Source: Bacteroidota bacterium | Lineage (GTDB): Bacteria; Bacteroidota; Bacteroidia; Chitinophagales; Chitinophagaceae | Reading direction: 5' to 3' | Assembly: GCA_018971025.1 (NCBI GenBank) | Contig: JAGWVE010000004.1 | Location: 1 to 64,000, forward strand | Length of the DNA: 64,000 nt | The notes under the pieces: model-generated | What the model saw: the letters and a program-made list of their open reading frames with translations, nothing else | Database searches by the model: none | What the model was told of the DNA's origin: nothing | Made by a program: the position numbers and the translations under genes | In this document: piece by piece, positions 24,223-32,905 of the stretch | Numbering within the stretch: position 1 is the stretch's first letter | Layout of the letters: the number at the start of each line of letters is the position of its first letter

Positions 24223-24393
24223 ATGAAAAAAGTATTCGCAATTTTAGCTGTAGTAGCTTTCGTAGCATGTAACTCAGGTGAAAACAAAGAAGCAACTGCA
24301 GACACTACTGCTGTTGACACAACTGCAACTGTATCTGCTGATACAACTGCTGTTGACACAACTGCTGCTGCTGTTGATACAACTAAGCACTAA
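24223..24393 (+). CDS. small lipoprotein (56 aa) with AVDTT-type repeats
   Basis: MKKVFAILAVVAFVACNSGENKEATADTTAVDTTATVSADTTAVDTTAAAVDTTKH*; lipobox AFVAC; below the size cut-off of the ORF track. Confidence 0.75.
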   Translation: MKKVFAILAVVAFVACNSGENKEATADTTAVDTTATVSADTTAVDTTAAAVDTTKH

Positions 24394-24493: not shown

Positions 24494-24527
24494 AGCCTTC
24501 TTGTTTCTACAAGAGGGCTTATTTTTT
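24494..24527 (+). terminator. intrinsic terminator downstream of the small lipoprotein gene
   Basis: AGCCTTCTTG-tttcta-CAAGAGGGCT (one G-U) followed by TATTTTTT. Confidence 0.65.
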
Positions 24528-24639: not shown

Positions 24640-24647
24640 TATATTTG
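24640..24647 (+). promoter_or_regulatory. candidate -7 promoter element (TAnnTTTG) for the phe leader
   Basis: TATATTTG, 7 nt before the leader-peptide ATG; no clear -33 TTTG. Confidence 0.4.
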
Positions 24648-24654
24648 AAATGCA

Positions 24655-24744
24655 ATGAGAGAATTATTATCAAATACTTGGTTTAGTTTCTATTACTATT
24701 ACTTCTTTACCAAAAGGAGCCGGGTATTATATGTATTAGCTTAA
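24655..24744 (+). CDS. Phe/Tyr-rich leader peptide of the aromatic operon (attenuator)
   Basis: MRELLSNTWFSFYYYYFFTKRSRVLYVLA*: W-F-S-F-Y-Y-Y-Y-F-F run immediately upstream of a terminator and pheA. Confidence 0.85.
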   Translation: MRELLSNTWFSFYYYYFFTKRSRVLYVLA

Positions 24745-24792
24745 TTAAAAATTTTTACATACAATCCCGGCCAATTGGCCGGGATTTTTTTT
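24673..24792 (+). promoter_or_regulatory. ribosome-mediated transcription attenuator with alternative RNA pairings 1:2, 2:3 and 3:4
   Basis: 1:2 = 24673-24684 with 24717-24728; 2:3 = 24719-24728 with 24763-24771 (one bulge); 3:4 = 24763-24772 with 24777-24786. Confidence 0.8.
24763..24792 (+). terminator. attenuator terminator hairpin upstream of pheA
   Basis: AATCCCGGCC-aatt-GGCCGGGATT plus TTTTTT; perfect 10-bp stem. Confidence 0.9.
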
Positions 24793-24798
24793 AAGTAT

Positions 24799-25671
24799 AT
24801 GCCAACAAAAAACAAAATATCAAGAAAGCCTGTAAATGACCTGGGTATTGCTATTCAGGGATACGAAGGAAGTTTCCACCAGGTGGCTGCGCGTACTATT
24901 TTTGGTAAAGACGTATCTGTGGTGCCTTGTGCGAATTTCAGGGAGCTGATTAAAAAAACAGCAAATAAAAAAGAAACGGCGGGTGCCATGATGGCCATCG
25001 AAAACTCAATTGCCGGAAGTATTTTACCCAACTATAATTTACTACTTGGTTCTAAATTAAAAGTAACGGGTGAAGTGTATTTATCAATTAGTCAAAATTT
25101 GCTCGTTAATAAAGGGGTTTCATTATCCGATATCAAAGAAGTGCATAGTCATCCAATGGCGCTTTTACAGTGTTTAGATTACCTCGAAAAAAACAATTGG
25201 AAATTAGTAGAAACAGAGGATACAGCGCTGAGTGCCAAACACCTTCAGCAACATAGGTCTAAACATGTGGCGGCAGTGGCTAGTAAATTAGCTGCAGAGC
25301 TTTTTAATTTGGATATTGTTGGGCCTGATATTCAAACGCAAAAAAATAATTTTACTCGGTTTTTGGTCTTGGAAAGAGCTACTGATGTTATAGAAGATGT
25401 GCTAGCAAATAAAGCTTCCATTTATTTTCAAACCAATCATACCAAAGGGGTGCTCGCTAAAGTGCTTACGCAAATTGCAAAGCACGATGTAAACTTATCT
25501 AAGTTACAAAGCATGCCTATTCCAGGAAGTAATTTTAAATATGGTTTTTTTGCTGACATGGAATTTGATCATCGTAAAAGATTTGATCAAGTATTACATG
25601 CAATAACAGATTTAACAAATAGTGTAAGAATTTTTGGGGTATACCAAAAAGGTAAAATGCAAAAAGGGTAG
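24799..25671 (+). CDS. pheA: prephenate dehydratase
   Basis: IAIQGYEGSFHQVAA; AMMAIENSIAGSI; ACT domain; NFTRFLVLER. True start is ATG at 24799; the track start (TTG 24775) lies inside the terminator. Confidence 0.9.
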   Translation: MPTKNKISRKPVNDLGIAIQGYEGSFHQVAARTIFGKDVSVVPCANFRELIKKTANKKETAGAMMAIENSIAGSILPNYNLLLGSKLKVTGEVYLSISQNLLVNKGVSLSDIKEVHSHPMALLQCLDYLEKNNWKLVETEDTALSAKHLQQHRSKHVAAVASKLAAELFNLDIVGPDIQTQKNNFTRFLVLERATDVIEDVLANKASIYFQTNHTKGVLAKVLTQIAKHDVNLSKLQSMPIPGSNFKYGFFADMEFDHRKRFDQVLHAITDLTNSVRIFGVYQKGKMQKG

Positions 25672-25673
25672 TT

Positions 25674-26843
25674 ATGGAAATGAAACTAGCAGCAAGATTA
25701 GACGGCATTGGTGAATATTATTTTTCACAAAAGCTGCGTGAAATTGAACAGTTAAATAAAGCGGGTAAACAAATTATAAACTTAGGTATTGGTAGTCCAG
25801 ATTTGGCGCCACATCCTGAAGTGGTAAAGGCTTTGCAAGAAGCGGCTGCTCCAGATAATGTACACGCCTATCAATCTTATAAAGGATCTCCGGTGTTACG
25901 TAATGCCATTTCAAGTTGGTATCAAAAATGGTATGGTGTCACGTTAGATCCTGAAACCGAAGTGCTACCGCTTATTGGAAGTAAAGAAGGTATCATGCAT
26001 ATTTGTATGACATATCTAAATGCTGGTGATCAGGCGCTCATTCCAAACCCTGGTTATCCAACCTATAGCAGTGCAGTAAAATTAGCAGGTGGCGAACCCG
26101 TTTATTACGATTTAACCCTTTCTGGTAATTGGGAGCCAGATTTAGCGGCACTCGAAAAAACAGATTTATCTAAAGTAAAAATAATGTGGGTGAATTATCC
26201 GCATATGCCAACTGGTCAACTTCCTTCAGATCATTTTTTTGAAGCCCTTATTGCATTTGCAACCAAGCACCAAATATTAATTTGTCATGACAATCCGTAT
26301 AGTTTTATTTTAAATGAAACACCTAAAAGTTTGCTTGCTGTTAAGGGCGCCAAAGAAGTAGTGGTAGAATTAAATTCTTTAAGTAAAAGTTCCAACATGG
26401 CTGGTTGGAGAGTAGGCATGTTGGCTGGAAAAAAAGAACGTATCGAAGAAGTGTTAAGGTTTAAATCCAACATGGATAGTGGTATGTATTTACCCATTCA
26501 ACTAGCAGCAGCAAAGGCGCTTAGCCTTGGTAAAGATTGGTACGATAGCATTAATGTTATTTATAAAACGCGTAGAGAAAAAGTTTTTGAACTACTCGAC
26601 TTATTACATTGTACCTATTCTAAAACACAGGTAGGCATGTTTGTTTGGGCTAGTATACCAAGTAATTACGTCGATGGTTTTGCGCTTAGTGACAAAGTGC
26701 TCTATGACGCCAATGTTTTTATTACACCTGGCGGCATTTTTGGTACGGGCGGTAATGGTTTTATTAGAATTAGTTTATGTGCACCTGTAGAGCGTTTTGA
26801 ATTAGCAATCGAAAGGGTAAAAAATGCAGGTATTGCTTTATAA
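25674..26843 (+). CDS. class I/II aminotransferase (probable aromatic aminotransferase)
   Basis: INLGIGSPDLAPHPEVV; LSKSSNMAGWRVG PLP-lysine motif; located between pheA and tyrA. Confidence 0.88.
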   Translation: MEMKLAARLDGIGEYYFSQKLREIEQLNKAGKQIINLGIGSPDLAPHPEVVKALQEAAAPDNVHAYQSYKGSPVLRNAISSWYQKWYGVTLDPETEVLPLIGSKEGIMHICMTYLNAGDQALIPNPGYPTYSSAVKLAGGEPVYYDLTLSGNWEPDLAALEKTDLSKVKIMWVNYPHMPTGQLPSDHFFEALIAFATKHQILICHDNPYSFILNETPKSLLAVKGAKEVVVELNSLSKSSNMAGWRVGMLAGKKERIEEVLRFKSNMDSGMYLPIQLAAAKALSLGKDWYDSINVIYKTRREKVFELLDLLHCTYSKTQVGMFVWASIPSNYVDGFALSDKVLYDANVFITPGGIFGTGGNGFIRISLCAPVERFELAIERVKNAGIAL

Positions 26844-26854
26844 ATTGTAGAACA

Positions 26855-27694
26855 ATGATTGTAACAATAATTGGTACGGGTTTAATTGGTGGATCCATGG
26901 CGCTTACTTTAAAAGAGAAAGGCTTTGCCACAAAAGTGATTGGCGTAGATGCGAGTGAGCAGCATTTGACCAAGGCGCTTGCATTAGGTATTATTGACGA
27001 AGCGCATTCTTTACAAGATGCCGTTGCGCTTTCTGATGTAATTATTATTGCTACTCCAATTAATGCTGCAGAAAATATACTGCCTCAAATATTAGCTATT
27101 GCATCTAAGCAAGTGGTGATGGACGTTGGCTCTACCAAAAACAATATTTGTAAAATTGTGGCCTCGCATCCAAAACGTGGCAGGTTTGTAGCAACGCATC
27201 CAATGTGGGGTACCGAGTACAGTGGACCGGAAGCAGCTGTTAAAAATGCCTTTACAGACAAGGCTACGGTTATTTGTTCTAAAGAAGCCAGCGACCCAGA
27301 TGCTGCTGCCCTGGTGGAGCAGGTGTATCAGACCCTGGGAATGCACCTTTTGTACATGGACGCTGCCGCCCATGATGTACATGTTGCATATATTAGTCAT
27401 ATTTCTCATATAACATCTTTTGCCCTTGCAAACACTGTTTTAGAGAAGGAAAGGGAAGAAGATGCCATTTTTGAACTGGCAAGTGGTGGTTTTGAGAGTA
27501 CGGTTCGCCTTGCAAAGAGTAATCCAAGTATGTGGGTTCCTATTCTCATGCAGAATAAAGAGAACGTTTTAGACGTTCTTAATGAACATATCTCTCAATT
27601 AAGAAAATTTAAGGCAAGCTTAGAAAAGGAAAATCCCGATTATTTGCTTGAATTAATTGAGAAAGCCAATGGTATAAAGCGGATTTTAAAGTAG
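26855..27694 (+). CDS. tyrA: prephenate dehydrogenase
   Basis: VTIIGTGLIGGSMALTLKEKG; THPMWGTEYSGPEAA; HVAYISHISHITSFAL. Confidence 0.88.
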   Translation: MIVTIIGTGLIGGSMALTLKEKGFATKVIGVDASEQHLTKALALGIIDEAHSLQDAVALSDVIIIATPINAAENILPQILAIASKQVVMDVGSTKNNICKIVASHPKRGRFVATHPMWGTEYSGPEAAVKNAFTDKATVICSKEASDPDAAALVEQVYQTLGMHLLYMDAAAHDVHVAYISHISHITSFALANTVLEKEREEDAIFELASGGFESTVRLAKSNPSMWVPILMQNKENVLDVLNEHISQLRKFKASLEKENPDYLLELIEKANGIKRILK

Positions 27695-27781: not shown

Positions 27782-29491
27782 ATGACGACATTTGAAGAGT
27801 TGGGAATTGACGCTAGATTGATTCAGTCAACCACAGAATTAGGGTACGTGAACCCTACAGCAATCCAAGAACAAGCGATCCCGGTTTTACTTAGTGGAAC
27901 CAAGGATTTTATTGGCTTGGCACAAACAGGAACAGGAAAGACAGCCGCATTTGGACTACCTCTATTACATATTATAGATGAAAAGGCAAAATATCCACAA
28001 GCACTTGTTGTTTGTCCTACTAGAGAACTTTGCATGCAAATTGTAAAGGAAGTTGAACTATTTAAGAAATACATGCCAGGTATTTCTGTGGTAGCCGTTT
28101 ATGGCGGTACCTCTATTGGCTTACAAATTAGAGACTTAAAAAGAGGGGTACAAATTATTGTGGCTACCCCTGGTCGATTAATTGATTTAATTGAACGTAA
28201 AGCAATCAACCTCGAACAAATTCAATATGTTGTTTTAGATGAGGCAGATGAAATGCTTAACATGGGCTTTCAGGATGATATCGAATTCATCTTAAAAAAT
28301 ACACCACAACGCGAAAGTACTTGGTTGTTTAGTGCAACCATGCCACCAGAAATTAGAAAGGTGAGCAAGCGTTACATGAAAGATCCTGTAGAAGTAACGG
28401 TTGGAAAAGTCAATACCTCTAATAAAAGTATTGACCACCAATATTATGTTACAACGGCGCAACACCGTTACCAAACCCTTAAAAGAATCATTGATTTTAA
28501 CCCGGGTATTTATGGTATCATTTTTACTAGAACTAAAATTGATGCGCAAGAAATTTCTGAGCGTTTAACCCGCGAAGGTTATGATATTGACGCATTACAT
28601 GGTGATCTTACGCAAGGACAGCGTGACAAAGTAATGGGGCAGTTTAGAGATAAAACTTTACAACTCCTAATTGCTACAGACGTTGCTGCGAGAGGGATTG
28701 ACGTACAAGGTATCACACACGTTATCAACTACGAATTACCGGATGATGTAGAAGTATATACACACCGTAGTGGTAGAACAGGACGTGCAGGACTTCAAGG
28801 TATTTGTATTTCAATTGTACACTCAAAAGAGATGTACAAGTTTAAGCAAATTGAACGCATCAACAATTCTAAGTTTTCTAAACTAGATATTCCAAGTGGT
28901 AAAGATGTTTGCCGCAAACAATTTTTCTTTTTCATGGAAAAATTATTGTCTGCAGATATTAGCCACGGCGATTATGAAACATATGTTCCTATGCTTGCCG
29001 AAAAATTTGCTGATGTAAGCAAAGAAGATGTGCTTAAGCGTGTAGCTGCTATGGAATTTGACAGGTTCTTAAAGTATTACGAAAACGCAGAAGACCTCAA
29101 CCATAGAGACAAGGGTAGACGTGAACAAAGTGATGCGCCGGATCAAGCAAGACGTAGAGATGGAAGAGACCGTGATGGTGGAAGAGGTGATAATAGAAAA
29201 GAATATGCAAGAGGTGGTGGTAATGGTTACAGCAGACTTTTTGTAAACCTTGGTACTAAAGATGGTTTTTATAAAGCAAGCTTTTTACAATTTATCCTAG
29301 ACATGAGTGATCTTAAAAAAGAAGCTCTTGGTAGAATTGACATGAAGGATATGAATTCTTGGATTGAAATCGAAAAAGGTGCCGCTAAACAAATGGTGAG
29401 TGCCCTTGATGGTAAAAACTATAAGGGTAGACGCATTCGTATGAATGATGCCGATAGTGGTGGAGAACGTAGACCAAGAAGAGGAGAATAA
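27782..29491 (+). CDS. DEAD/DEAH box RNA helicase with DbpA-type C-terminal RNA-binding domain
   Basis: AQTGTGKTAAFGLPLL, PTRELCMQ, VLDEADEML, SATMPPE, HRSGRTGRAG; RG-rich linker; C-term RLFVNLGTKDGFYKASFLQFILDMSDL...GRRIRMNDAD. Confidence 0.9.
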   Translation: MTTFEELGIDARLIQSTTELGYVNPTAIQEQAIPVLLSGTKDFIGLAQTGTGKTAAFGLPLLHIIDEKAKYPQALVVCPTRELCMQIVKEVELFKKYMPGISVVAVYGGTSIGLQIRDLKRGVQIIVATPGRLIDLIERKAINLEQIQYVVLDEADEMLNMGFQDDIEFILKNTPQRESTWLFSATMPPEIRKVSKRYMKDPVEVTVGKVNTSNKSIDHQYYVTTAQHRYQTLKRIIDFNPGIYGIIFTRTKIDAQEISERLTREGYDIDALHGDLTQGQRDKVMGQFRDKTLQLLIATDVAARGIDVQGITHVINYELPDDVEVYTHRSGRTGRAGLQGICISIVHSKEMYKFKQIERINNSKFSKLDIPSGKDVCRKQFFFFMEKLLSADISHGDYETYVPMLAEKFADVSKEDVLKRVAAMEFDRFLKYYENAEDLNHRDKGRREQSDAPDQARRRDGRDRDGGRGDNRKEYARGGGNGYSRLFVNLGTKDGFYKASFLQFILDMSDLKKEALGRIDMKDMNSWIEIEKGAAKQMVSALDGKNYKGRRIRMNDADSGGERRPRRGE

Positions 29492-29516: not shown

Positions 29517-30602
29517 ATGGAACAAGCAATCGAAACAAAAACAGGAGTGGAAGCGCTTCTACAAAAAAGACCCTTAATTATTTCTGGCCCCTGCAGTGCA
29601 GAAACAGAAGAACAAGTAATTCAAACAGCTACAAGACTGGCAGCTACTGGTAAAGTAGATATATTACGTGCTGGTATTTGGAAGCCACGTACGCGTCCAG
29701 GTAGTTTTGAAGGTATTGGTACCAAAGGGTTGCCTTGGTTACAGCAAGCAAAAAAAGCATCTGGTTTACCTGTTGCGATTGAAGTTGCTACTGCTAAACA
29801 AGTAGAAGATGCACTCCATTTTGGTGTTGATGTTTTATGGATTGGTGCTAGAACCACCGTAAATCCATTTAGTGTGCAAGATGTTGCGGATGCACTTAAG
29901 GGAGCAGATGTTCCTGTATTAATTAAAAACCCAATCAATCCAGATTTAGAATTATGGATTGGTGCTGTAGAGCGCGTTGCTAATGCAGGCATTAAAAATA
30001 TTGGTTTAATCCATAGAGGCTTTAGTTCTTATGGTAATACCGAATATAGAAATGCGCCGATGTGGCATTTGGCTATCGAAATGAAACGCCGTAATCCAGG
30101 TATGTTGCTCATTAATGACCCTTCACATATTTGTGGTAGAAGAGATATTTTATTAGACGTTGCTCAAAAAGCAATTGACTTAGATTTTGATGGTTTAATC
30201 ATCGAAAGCCATATCGATCCTGACAATGCTTGGAGTGATGCGAAGCAACAAATTACACCAGAGCGTTTAGGTGAAATGATTGGTTCTATTGTATGGAGAA
30301 CCGAAGAAATTGATTCTGAAGAACTACACGCAGTAATGGAAAAAATGCGTCAGCAAATTAACCAGCTTGATGATGAATTGCTTCAACTGATTGGTCAACG
30401 TATGAAAGTAGCTGATAAAATTGGTCAGTACAAAAAAGACAATAACATCACCATTTTACAAACCAATAGATGGAATGCTATTTTAGAGCGTGCCTACGAA
30501 AGAGGCGAGAAACTTGGTTTAAGCAAAGAATTTATTACAAAGTATTTTGATGCGGTGCATATGGAAAGTATCAACCACCAAAACAAAATCATGAATTCCT
30601 AG
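29517..30602 (+). CDS. bifunctional 3-deoxy-7-phosphoheptulonate synthase / chorismate mutase
   Basis: RPLIISGPCSAETEEQV; DILRAGIWKPRTRPGSFEGIG; C-terminal MRQQINQLDDELLQLIGQRMKVADKIGQYK chorismate mutase helix. Confidence 0.92.
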   Translation: MEQAIETKTGVEALLQKRPLIISGPCSAETEEQVIQTATRLAATGKVDILRAGIWKPRTRPGSFEGIGTKGLPWLQQAKKASGLPVAIEVATAKQVEDALHFGVDVLWIGARTTVNPFSVQDVADALKGADVPVLIKNPINPDLELWIGAVERVANAGIKNIGLIHRGFSSYGNTEYRNAPMWHLAIEMKRRNPGMLLINDPSHICGRRDILLDVAQKAIDLDFDGLIIESHIDPDNAWSDAKQQITPERLGEMIGSIVWRTEEIDSEELHAVMEKMRQQINQLDDELLQLIGQRMKVADKIGQYKKDNNITILQTNRWNAILERAYERGEKLGLSKEFITKYFDAVHMESINHQNKIMNS

Positions 30603-30605
30603 TTG

Positions 30606-31625
30606 ATGAAAAAAAAGGTTTTTCATTTTTCAGGTAAACCTGTTAACTATTATTTTGATGCTTCTTTTGATGCGTTAAAAAACATTGTGCCCATAGCATC
30701 ATCTGTAATTATTACAGATGAAAATGTATTTGAAGCCCATAAAAAAAAGTTTAAGGGCTGGGCTACCATTGTATTAAAACCTGGTGAGCAGTATAAGGTA
30801 CAGCAAACCGTTGATGTAGTTATTGATAGGCTCATTGAACTTGGGGCCGATCGTCAATCTACTTTAATTGGTGTTGGCGGCGGTGTCATTACGGATATTA
30901 CAGGATATGTAGCAAGTATTTACATGCGCGGTATAGCGGTAGGTTTTGTGCCTACTTCTTTACTTGCCATGGTAGATGCTTCTATTGGTGGAAAAAACGG
31001 TATTGATGTTGGTGTATACAAAAACATGGTGGGCATTATTCGCCAACCTAGTTTTTTACTCTTTGATACCAGCTTTTTAAAATCCTTACCATTATCCGAA
31101 TGGCAAAATGGTTTTGCAGAAATTATTAAGCATGGTGCAATTAAAGATGCTACATTAATTAAACAATTGCAATCGAATTCGCTAGCTAAGTATAAAAAAG
31201 ACTTTGCATTAACAGCAAAACTAGTGGAGCGAAATGTAATGATAAAAACCAAAGTGGTACTTGCTGATGAATTTGAAAAGGCAGATCGTAAACTTTTAAA
31301 CTTTGGTCATACCCTTGGGCATGCGCTAGAAAATACATACGAGTTAAGCCATGGACAGGCCATTAGTATTGGCATGACATATGCTGCTGTGATAGCCGAA
31401 CAATTGATACAATTTAAAGGCAGAGATACACTCGTTGCACTTTTGGAAAAGTATGGGTTACCAACCTATGCTTCTTTTAACATTGCTAAAGCTATTTCTA
31501 TTTTGCAAAAGGATAAGAAAAAAACAAAAGATGCAGTGCATTATATTTTGTTAGAAAAAATAGGTAAAGGTGTTATTCAAACCATTCCATTTGTAACACT
31601 TGAAAAAATATTTAAAGGCATTTAG
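30606..31625 (+). CDS. aroB: 3-dehydroquinate synthase
   Basis: LIGVGGGVITDITGYVASIYMRG; KNMVGIIRQP; NFGHTLGHALE. Confidence 0.92.
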   Translation: MKKKVFHFSGKPVNYYFDASFDALKNIVPIASSVIITDENVFEAHKKKFKGWATIVLKPGEQYKVQQTVDVVIDRLIELGADRQSTLIGVGGGVITDITGYVASIYMRGIAVGFVPTSLLAMVDASIGGKNGIDVGVYKNMVGIIRQPSFLLFDTSFLKSLPLSEWQNGFAEIIKHGAIKDATLIKQLQSNSLAKYKKDFALTAKLVERNVMIKTKVVLADEFEKADRKLLNFGHTLGHALENTYELSHGQAISIGMTYAAVIAEQLIQFKGRDTLVALLEKYGLPTYASFNIAKAISILQKDKKKTKDAVHYILLEKIGKGVIQTIPFVTLEKIFKGI

Positions 31626-31627
31626 GT

Positions 31628-32905
31628 ATGATAAAAGCACGCGTAACGCCTTCAACAATTACGGGTACCATTACTGCACCTGCTAGCAAAAGTAGCATGC
31701 AGCGTGCTTGTGCGGCCTCTTTAATCAGAAAAGGCGAGACAATTATTAAAAATCCAGGCGTAAGTAATGATGACTTGGCAGCAATTGATGTTATTCAAAA
31801 ACTTGGTGCCGTTGTTACCACACTTGATAATGGAGATTTACATATTATATCAGGTGGCGTAAACCCTGCAAGTAATACCATTAATTGCGGAGAGAGTGGT
31901 CTTGGAATTCGAATGTTTACACCCATTACTGCTTTAAGTAGTGATCCAATAACCATAACTGGGATGGGTAGTTTAACTACAAGGCCCATGCATTTCTTTG
32001 ATGAAATATTACCACAAATAGGTGTATCTATTACATCTGATGCTGGTAAATTGCCATTGCACATTCAAGGGCCTATTAAGCCTCAAAATATTACGGTAGA
32101 TGGATCCCTTAGTTCTCAGTTTTTAACTGGGCTGTTAATGGCTTACGGTGGTGCAGGTGCAAGTGATTGTACCATTACTGTATCCAATCTAAAAAGCAAA
32201 CCCTACATAGATCTTACACTTGCTGTCATGCAGCATTTTGGTTGGAACGTTTCATGTATCAATCATGAACAATTTGTTTTTTCGGCACCTAACAATGCGC
32301 TAGATCATTCAACGATTACGTATCAGGTAGAAGGGGATTGGAGTGGTGCATCTTTTTTACTAGTGGCTGGTGCAATAGCTGGAGGCATTGTTGTAGAAGG
32401 GTTAGATCCTTTTTCTACGCAAGCAGATAAAGCTGTATTACAAGCTTTAATTGATTGTGGTTGTCAAATTTCTATTCAACCTACAAAAATTGAAATTGCG
32501 CCACTGCCTTTAAAAGCATTTCATTTTAATGCCACCGATTGTCCCGATTTATTTCCGCCACTTGTTGCACTTGCATCTTTTTGTGAAGGTAAAACGGTGA
32601 TAGAAGGTGTGGGTAGACTTGCCCACAAGGAAAGTGATAGAGCGCTTACTTTGCAAGAAGAGTTTGGAAAATTAGGCGTGTCGATTGTATTGCAAGACGA
32701 TCTTATGATTATTGAAGGCGGAAAGGGTGTACGTGGTGGTATTGTTCATTCGAGACACGATCACCGCATTGCGATGGCATGTGCTGTTGCTGCATTAAAA
32801 GCAAATGGTGTTGTTGAAATTGAAGATGCTGATGCGATTAATAAATCGTACCCAAATTTTTACAAAGACCTTTCGTATCTTACTGCTACCGTTGATTACA
32901 AATAA
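31628..32905 (+). CDS. aroA: 3-phosphoshikimate 1-carboxyvinyltransferase (EPSP synthase)
   Basis: APASKSSMQRACAAS; GESGLGIRMFTPI; DGSLSSQFLTGLLMA; KESDRALTLQEEF; RHDHRIAMACAVA. Confidence 0.92.
   Translation: MIKARVTPSTITGTITAPASKSSMQRACAASLIRKGETIIKNPGVSNDDLAAIDVIQKLGAVVTTLDNGDLHIISGGVNPASNTINCGESGLGIRMFTPITALSSDPITITGMGSLTTRPMHFFDEILPQIGVSITSDAGKLPLHIQGPIKPQNITVDGSLSSQFLTGLLMAYGGAGASDCTITVSNLKSKPYIDLTLAVMQHFGWNVSCINHEQFVFSAPNNALDHSTITYQVEGDWSGASFLLVAGAIAGGIVVEGLDPFSTQADKAVLQALIDCGCQISIQPTKIEIAPLPLKAFHFNATDCPDLFPPLVALASFCEGKTVIEGVGRLAHKESDRALTLQEEFGKLGVSIVLQDDLMIIEGGKGVRGGIVHSRHDHRIAMACAVAALKANGVVEIEDADAINKSYPNFYKDLSYLTATVDYK

Follow-up and report, generated by a model that had tools for sequence, protein, structure and literature searches.

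The region in front of pheA is very probably a ribosome-mediated transcription attenuator, which would sense the charging of both Phe-tRNA and Tyr-tRNA and control the pheA, aminotransferase and tyrA genes, and probably the shikimate genes behind them. Its anatomy, its conservation among relatives, the selection on its codons and the covariation of its helices are established by the observations given below. The window, i.e. the whole 64,000-nucleotide stretch of DNA that was analysed, belongs to a 2.0-Mb assembly of 117 contigs, and the nearest named relatives of this genome are Sediminibacterium metagenome bins, which places it in Chitinophagaceae. The relevant features, with their basis in brackets, are:

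24640-24647, forward strand: -7 box TATATTTG, matching TAnnTTTG of the Bacteroidota primary sigma factor, sigma-A (sequence)
24655-24744, forward strand: leader peptide ORF MRELLSNTWFSFYYYYFFTKRSRVLYVLA, 29 codons, ATG at 24655 and stop codon TAA at 24742-24744 (conserved among homologues)
24673-24684, forward strand: strand 1, partner of strand 2 (folding; partner-swap duplex energies)
24679-24708, forward strand: sensor codons 9-18, i.e. Trp, Phe, Ser, Phe, four Tyr and two Phe (sequence)
24717-24735, forward strand: strand 2 with its inner extension, within the leader ORF, partner of strand 1 or strand 3 (folding)
24756-24771, forward strand: strand 3 of the antiterminator, UACAUA of the inner helix plus AAUCCCGGC (folding; partner swaps and pair counts)
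24763-24792, forward strand: intrinsic terminator 3:4, AATCCCGGCC-AATT-GGCCGGGATT, with U-run (sequence, folding, double changes in the relative clade)
24799-25671, forward strand: pheA, prephenate dehydratase, first gene under putative control (Pfam PDT, E 3.5e-55)
25674-26843, forward strand: class I/II aminotransferase (Pfam, E 1.9e-58; a relative in 82 of 83 flanked loci)
26855-27694, forward strand: tyrA, prephenate dehydrogenase (Pfam PDH_N, E 3.4e-35; a relative in at least 71 of 83 loci, the flank being limited)
29517-32905, forward strand: DAHP synthase-chorismate mutase, aroB (3-dehydroquinate synthase) and EPSP synthase (Pfam)

The last three genes are probably in the same operon as pheA. 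Between tyrA and the DAHP synthase gene lies a gene for a DEAD-box RNA helicase with a DbpA-type RNA-binding domain (27782-29491). On the other side of the attenuator there is a lipoprotein-like small ORF (24223-24393, MKKVFAILAVVAFVACNSGENKE...) with Ala/Asp/Thr-rich repeats, and behind it a terminator-like site at 24494-24519 that would shield the attenuator from upstream transcription.

The leader peptide and its codons

The 29-codon ORF and the cluster of Phe, Tyr and Trp within ten residues that a preliminary description of this DNA had reported were both re-found in the sequence, the cluster reading W-F-S-F-Y-Y-Y-Y-F-F at codons 9-18. Over both strands of the 64-kb window, it is the only short ORF with at least eight aromatic residues in ten, and also the only aromatic ORF followed by a terminator. 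A pattern search of the genome returned three overlapping matches, all at the pheA locus, and no further copies of the element.

DNA upstream of pheA was compared for 114 loci, nearly all from Chitinophagaceae. A leader was called as an ATG-started short ORF with at least six aromatic residues in ten, thresholds on which the homologue counts depend. Such a Phe/Tyr-rich leader is present in 109 of the 114 regions; leader, terminator and a strand complementary to the 5' arm of the terminator occur together in 107. The other five regions comprise two GTG-started leaders, one in which a contig edge truncates the leader but leaves the aromatic run visible, one weak case and one without a leader. 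A phylum-wide sample contains leaders in families f2, f3, f5, f8, f9, f11, f16, f19, f28 and f34, and none was seen in most sampled families outside the class, where pheA is more distant. Conservation in relatives was what the preliminary description had made its reading depend on; the relatives retain the leader with its aromatic run, the terminator and the competing pairings. Judged by sequence, the putative attenuator design is conserved throughout Chitinophagaceae and in several other families.

Upstream of some pheA genes, two Phe/Tyr-rich leaders are arranged in series (L057:1434-1672, L146:253-477, L126:1173 onwards and probably L127). In L057 and L146, both leaders come with a terminator and a complementary strand of their own; L126 and L127 have one or two terminators that are imperfect or were overlooked by the scan.

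Across 77 dereplicated leaders, the aromatic block contains 435 TTY codons to 1 TTR codon in the ORF frame, compared with 181:161 in the +2 frame; part of this bias comes from picking aromatic-rich ORFs, with a threshold that left four of every ten residues free to be non-aromatic. The Phe and Tyr codons of the leader are under strong selection. The strand-2 CCGGG motif, in contrast, falls in every one of the three frames counted from the ATG (33, 20 and 4 cases), and the strand-2 region encodes RSRV or RPGM depending on the clade; the use of all three frames indicates that the C-terminal part of the leader is conserved as RNA rather than as peptide. We also observe that C-ending codons are commoner in the leaders of the 107 homologues (TTC in 207 of 648 cases, TAC in 173 of 363) than in the operon genes of the window (7 of 96 and 26 of 77), a rough comparison, the leaders being drawn from many genomes.

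Phe and Tyr are both present in all 77 leaders, with means of 6.0 Phe, 3.5 Tyr and 0.2 Trp per leader. The surplus of Phe, and the fact that the known enterobacterial pheA leader is Phe-based, would fit an otherwise identical attenuator in which Phe is the sole real signal and the Tyr codons are filler within a T-rich block. This is unlikely, as no leader has lost Tyr, the first one always being at codon 5-14; the window has four Tyr in a row, and at least 71 of 83 loci keep this gene order with tyrA downstream. The codons thus suggest that Tyr is sensed besides Phe. A dense and conserved aromatic block could, on the other hand, belong to an arrest peptide that halts the ribosome when a free ligand or drug is present, as in TnaC, and not at hungry codons. 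However, how many Phe and Tyr there are, in which order and at what spacing varies freely, with Ser, Gly, Cys or Asn interrupting the run, and no fixed residue pattern is retained, in contrast to known arrest peptides, making this explanation very improbable.

The -7 box TATATTTG corresponds to the TAnnTTTG consensus of the Bacteroidota primary sigma factor (PMC7366714). It ends 7 nt before the leader ATG, implying a predicted transcription start at about 24650-24652 and a 5' UTR of ~3-5 nt; the leader mRNA is therefore predicted to be nearly leaderless. Of 107 homologues, 82 have the box starting 12-18 nt ahead of the leader ATG, 49 of them at -15. In Chitinophagaceae, a -7 box is found at a similar distance before most hisG and several trpE leaders, whereas in the other sampled families it is usually farther from the leader or unrecognised. 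In published maps, 3.7% of Bacteroides 5' UTRs are shorter than 10 nt and 5.5% of Flavobacterium psychrophilum mRNAs are leaderless. The trpL attenuator of Sinorhizobium meliloti likewise has its leader ORF on a transcript starting at its own ATG (PMC7298713); it senses Trp and comes from an alphaproteobacterium, and the comparison with it concerns layout.

The alternative RNA helices

Folding of the region gave a minimum free energy of -36.1 kcal/mol (z -4.1), equalled by none of 200 shuffled sequences, with helices 1:2 and 3:4 both formed. The latter is the terminator, as had been proposed, with arms at 24763-24772 and 24777-24786 and a U-run at 24787-24792. These coordinates agree with the preliminary description, but its spacing of 7 nt to the pheA ATG at 24799 does not: the ATG follows 6 nt after the U-run. 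The pairing of strand 1 (24673-24684) with positions 24717-24728 of strand 2 is exactly as described before. For 2:3, the core of GCCGGG (24719-24724) with CCCGGC (24766-24771) stands, but the helix is longer than had been thought: it is an interrupted 15-bp helix of 6+3+6 bp, in which 24719-24724 pair with 24766-24771, 24726-24728 with 24763-24765 and 24730-24735 with 24756-24761. The antiterminator amounts to -17.4 kcal/mol and the terminator to -19.4 kcal/mol.

Among the homologues, strands fit their own partners better than those of other loci. For 2:3, duplexes with the own partner have a mean of -13.96 kcal/mol versus -12.25 (sd 0.17) when swapped; for 1:2 the values are -15.9 versus -12.7 (sd 0.34), and for the inner antiterminator helix -6.3 versus -5.1 (sd 0.20). 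In each case, none of 2000 swaps was as good. The base 5' of CCGGG in strand 2 co-varies with the base 3' of CCCGG in strand 3 (Fisher p 1.6e-7), the combinations being G/C in 37 cases, A/T in 14, G/T in 3 and A/C in 4. L067 shows a concerted change of strands 1, 2 and 3 (GCCGGAGG with CCTCCGG), and its 1:2 duplex reaches -25.3.

For pair counts the homologues were divided into two clades. In the relative clade (35 sequences), 88.5% of the 2:3 cells are paired, against at most 48% for slid versions of the helix, and there are 15 double changes where shuffling gives 3.7 (0 of 500 shuffles reach the observed number). Helix 3:4 has 35 double-changed cells versus 7.7 shuffled (0 of 500). The double changes in 1:2 are reached by 6 of 500 shuffles, a weaker result than for 2:3 and 3:4. 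In the clade of the window itself (24 sequences), 86% of the 2:3 cells are paired with little covariation beyond conservation, because the helices there vary too little; for 1:2, 72% are paired and the observed double changes are matched in 34 of 500 shuffles, which supports this pairing moderately. All these shuffle tests retain shared ancestry and are inflated by the relatedness of the sequences. RNAalifold on a 69-sequence alignment gave the terminator alone, since the two registers of strand 2 were misaligned. Judged from these alignments, pairings 2:3 and 3:4 covary, and 1:2 does so less strongly.

The element thus has the parts that define the attenuator class: a short leader ORF rich in codons for the amino-acid products of the operon, an intrinsic terminator between leader and first gene, a mutually exclusive antiterminator kept by compensating changes (more weakly so in the clade of the window) and, in 1:2, a candidate protector or pause hairpin.

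Proposed switching mechanism

A Phe/Tyr-rich peptide followed by two competing hairpins implies that slow translation of the leader should turn the operon on. The 77 leaders were modelled with a ribosome footprint reaching from 18 nt upstream of the first A-site base to 12 nt downstream of it; the transcript extended to the terminator loop, and folding was allowed only beyond the downstream edge of the ribosome. A ribosome placed on the first codon for Phe or for Tyr lets 2:3 form with a mean probability of 0.73. On the stop codon this falls to about 0 because strand 2 is covered, a partly geometric result. As long as strand 3 has not been transcribed, strand 2 pairs mostly with upstream RNA (mean probability 0.75), and once the transcript is complete the terminator prevails (0.89). 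With no ribosome present, equilibrium favours 2:3 over 1:2 until strand 4 has been made, and termination in the untranslated state must therefore be kinetic in this model.

From the position of the -7 box, transcription would begin a few nucleotides before the leader AUG. When Phe and Tyr are ample, the ribosome would pass codons 9-18, reach the stop codon and cover strand 2, leaving 3:4 to pair and terminate transcription. When either is short, the ribosome would stall near codons 10-16 with strand 2 free, and 2:3 would form before strand 4 is made, permitting read-through, which is predicted to rise on Phe or Tyr starvation. If the leader is not translated, 1:2 may form first, followed by the terminator. 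The preliminary description had explained the switch by masking of strand 1 under a stalled ribosome. The conserved leader and competing pairings support this logic, but masking of strand 1 would not be the only switch, as strand 2 lies within the ORF and is covered at the stop codon. The model outcomes suggest that the switch is mainly a matter of which part of the leader the ribosome covers.

The same genome carries a His-rich leader before hisG (MKQFTHNHHHHFLPNG, L186) and a Trp leader before trpE (MKQVLNNKWWWHTNSNRGM, L210), each followed by a strong terminator and each with counterparts in relatives. Upstream of leuA, no Leu/Ile/Val-rich leader with a terminator behind it was seen.

Leader translation is itself deduced, and the terminator is strong enough that it could work alone; the region might then go untranslated and act as a constitutive terminator, an insulator or an attenuator that binds a protein, the ORF over its U-rich tract having arisen by chance. 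We consider this the least probable of the alternatives, given that the TTY bias is confined to the ORF frame, the promoter-to-ATG distance is near-fixed, the antiterminator is sequence-compensated and the hisG and trpE leaders match their amino acids. The ribosome-mediated attenuator is preferred.

Relation to known leaders and implications

Neither the window nor 20 pheA homologues gave a match at the cut-off of any Rfam family. At a relaxed E-value, weak matches to many families appeared, MicC, PyrR, Leu_leader and Phe_leader among them, all far below cut-off and mostly over the terminator hairpin. The Phe_leader family RF01859, the enterobacterial pheA attenuator, scores 25.9 bits here against a gathering score of 55, bearing out the earlier expectation that this model would miss the element. 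It shares with the window a Phe-rich leader ORF and a terminator and antiterminator before pheA; the window differs in having both Phe and Tyr codons, in placing strand 2 within the ORF and in its predicted control of pheA, aminotransferase and tyrA. Bacteroid-trp (RF01692, gathering score 49), the Bacteroidete tryptophan peptide leader, is a leader-peptide RNA of the same phylum, but has Trp codons and precedes trpE. It matches neither the window nor the 20 pheA homologues, and the Chitinophagaceae trpE leaders tested fall below its cut-off; the trpE leader of a sampled relative of the same class (L209) does match (66.5 bits, E 2.1e-6). PMC4833913 cites a comparative survey by Lopatovskaya et al. 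from 2010.

The best-documented cases of leader-peptide attenuation come from Proteobacteria and Actinobacteria, and a 2010 survey found none shown elsewhere besides its own Firmicutes case (PMC2965389). A transcriptome study of F. psychrophilum presents strong indications that amino-acid operons are attenuated through leader peptides, and describes a structured 5' element before pheA, conserved in Flavobacteriaceae and without an Rfam match (PMC9723704). Its pheA and hisG elements resemble the present one in the structured element before pheA and in the suggested attenuation; for pheA, the main text of that study specifies neither a peptide nor strands nor a mechanism (PMC9723704). The idea of attenuation is thus already known for the phylum from RF01692 and this report. 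Together with the Rfam result, these precedents indicate that the pheA leader is a distinct, unmodelled RNA family using an old, classical mechanism.

There is about an even chance that this is an undescribed family of joint Phe-and-Tyr attenuators, common across the class Bacteroidia, with an antiterminator drawn from the last codons of the leader, a nearly leaderless translation start in Chitinophagaceae and two copies in series in some lineages. The material for a covariance model of this Rfam-missing family is at hand, and many leader genes are unannotated. His, Trp and Phe/Tyr leaders in one genome, together with the codon selection and covariation at pheA, suggest widespread amino-acid regulation through a ribosome that translates just behind RNA polymerase in Bacteroidota, a phylum in which mRNAs generally have no Shine-Dalgarno site. 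Through these leaders, transcription-translation coupling in Bacteroidota becomes directly testable; if true, the spread of a joint Phe-and-Tyr attenuator would imply that coupling in this phylum is tight.
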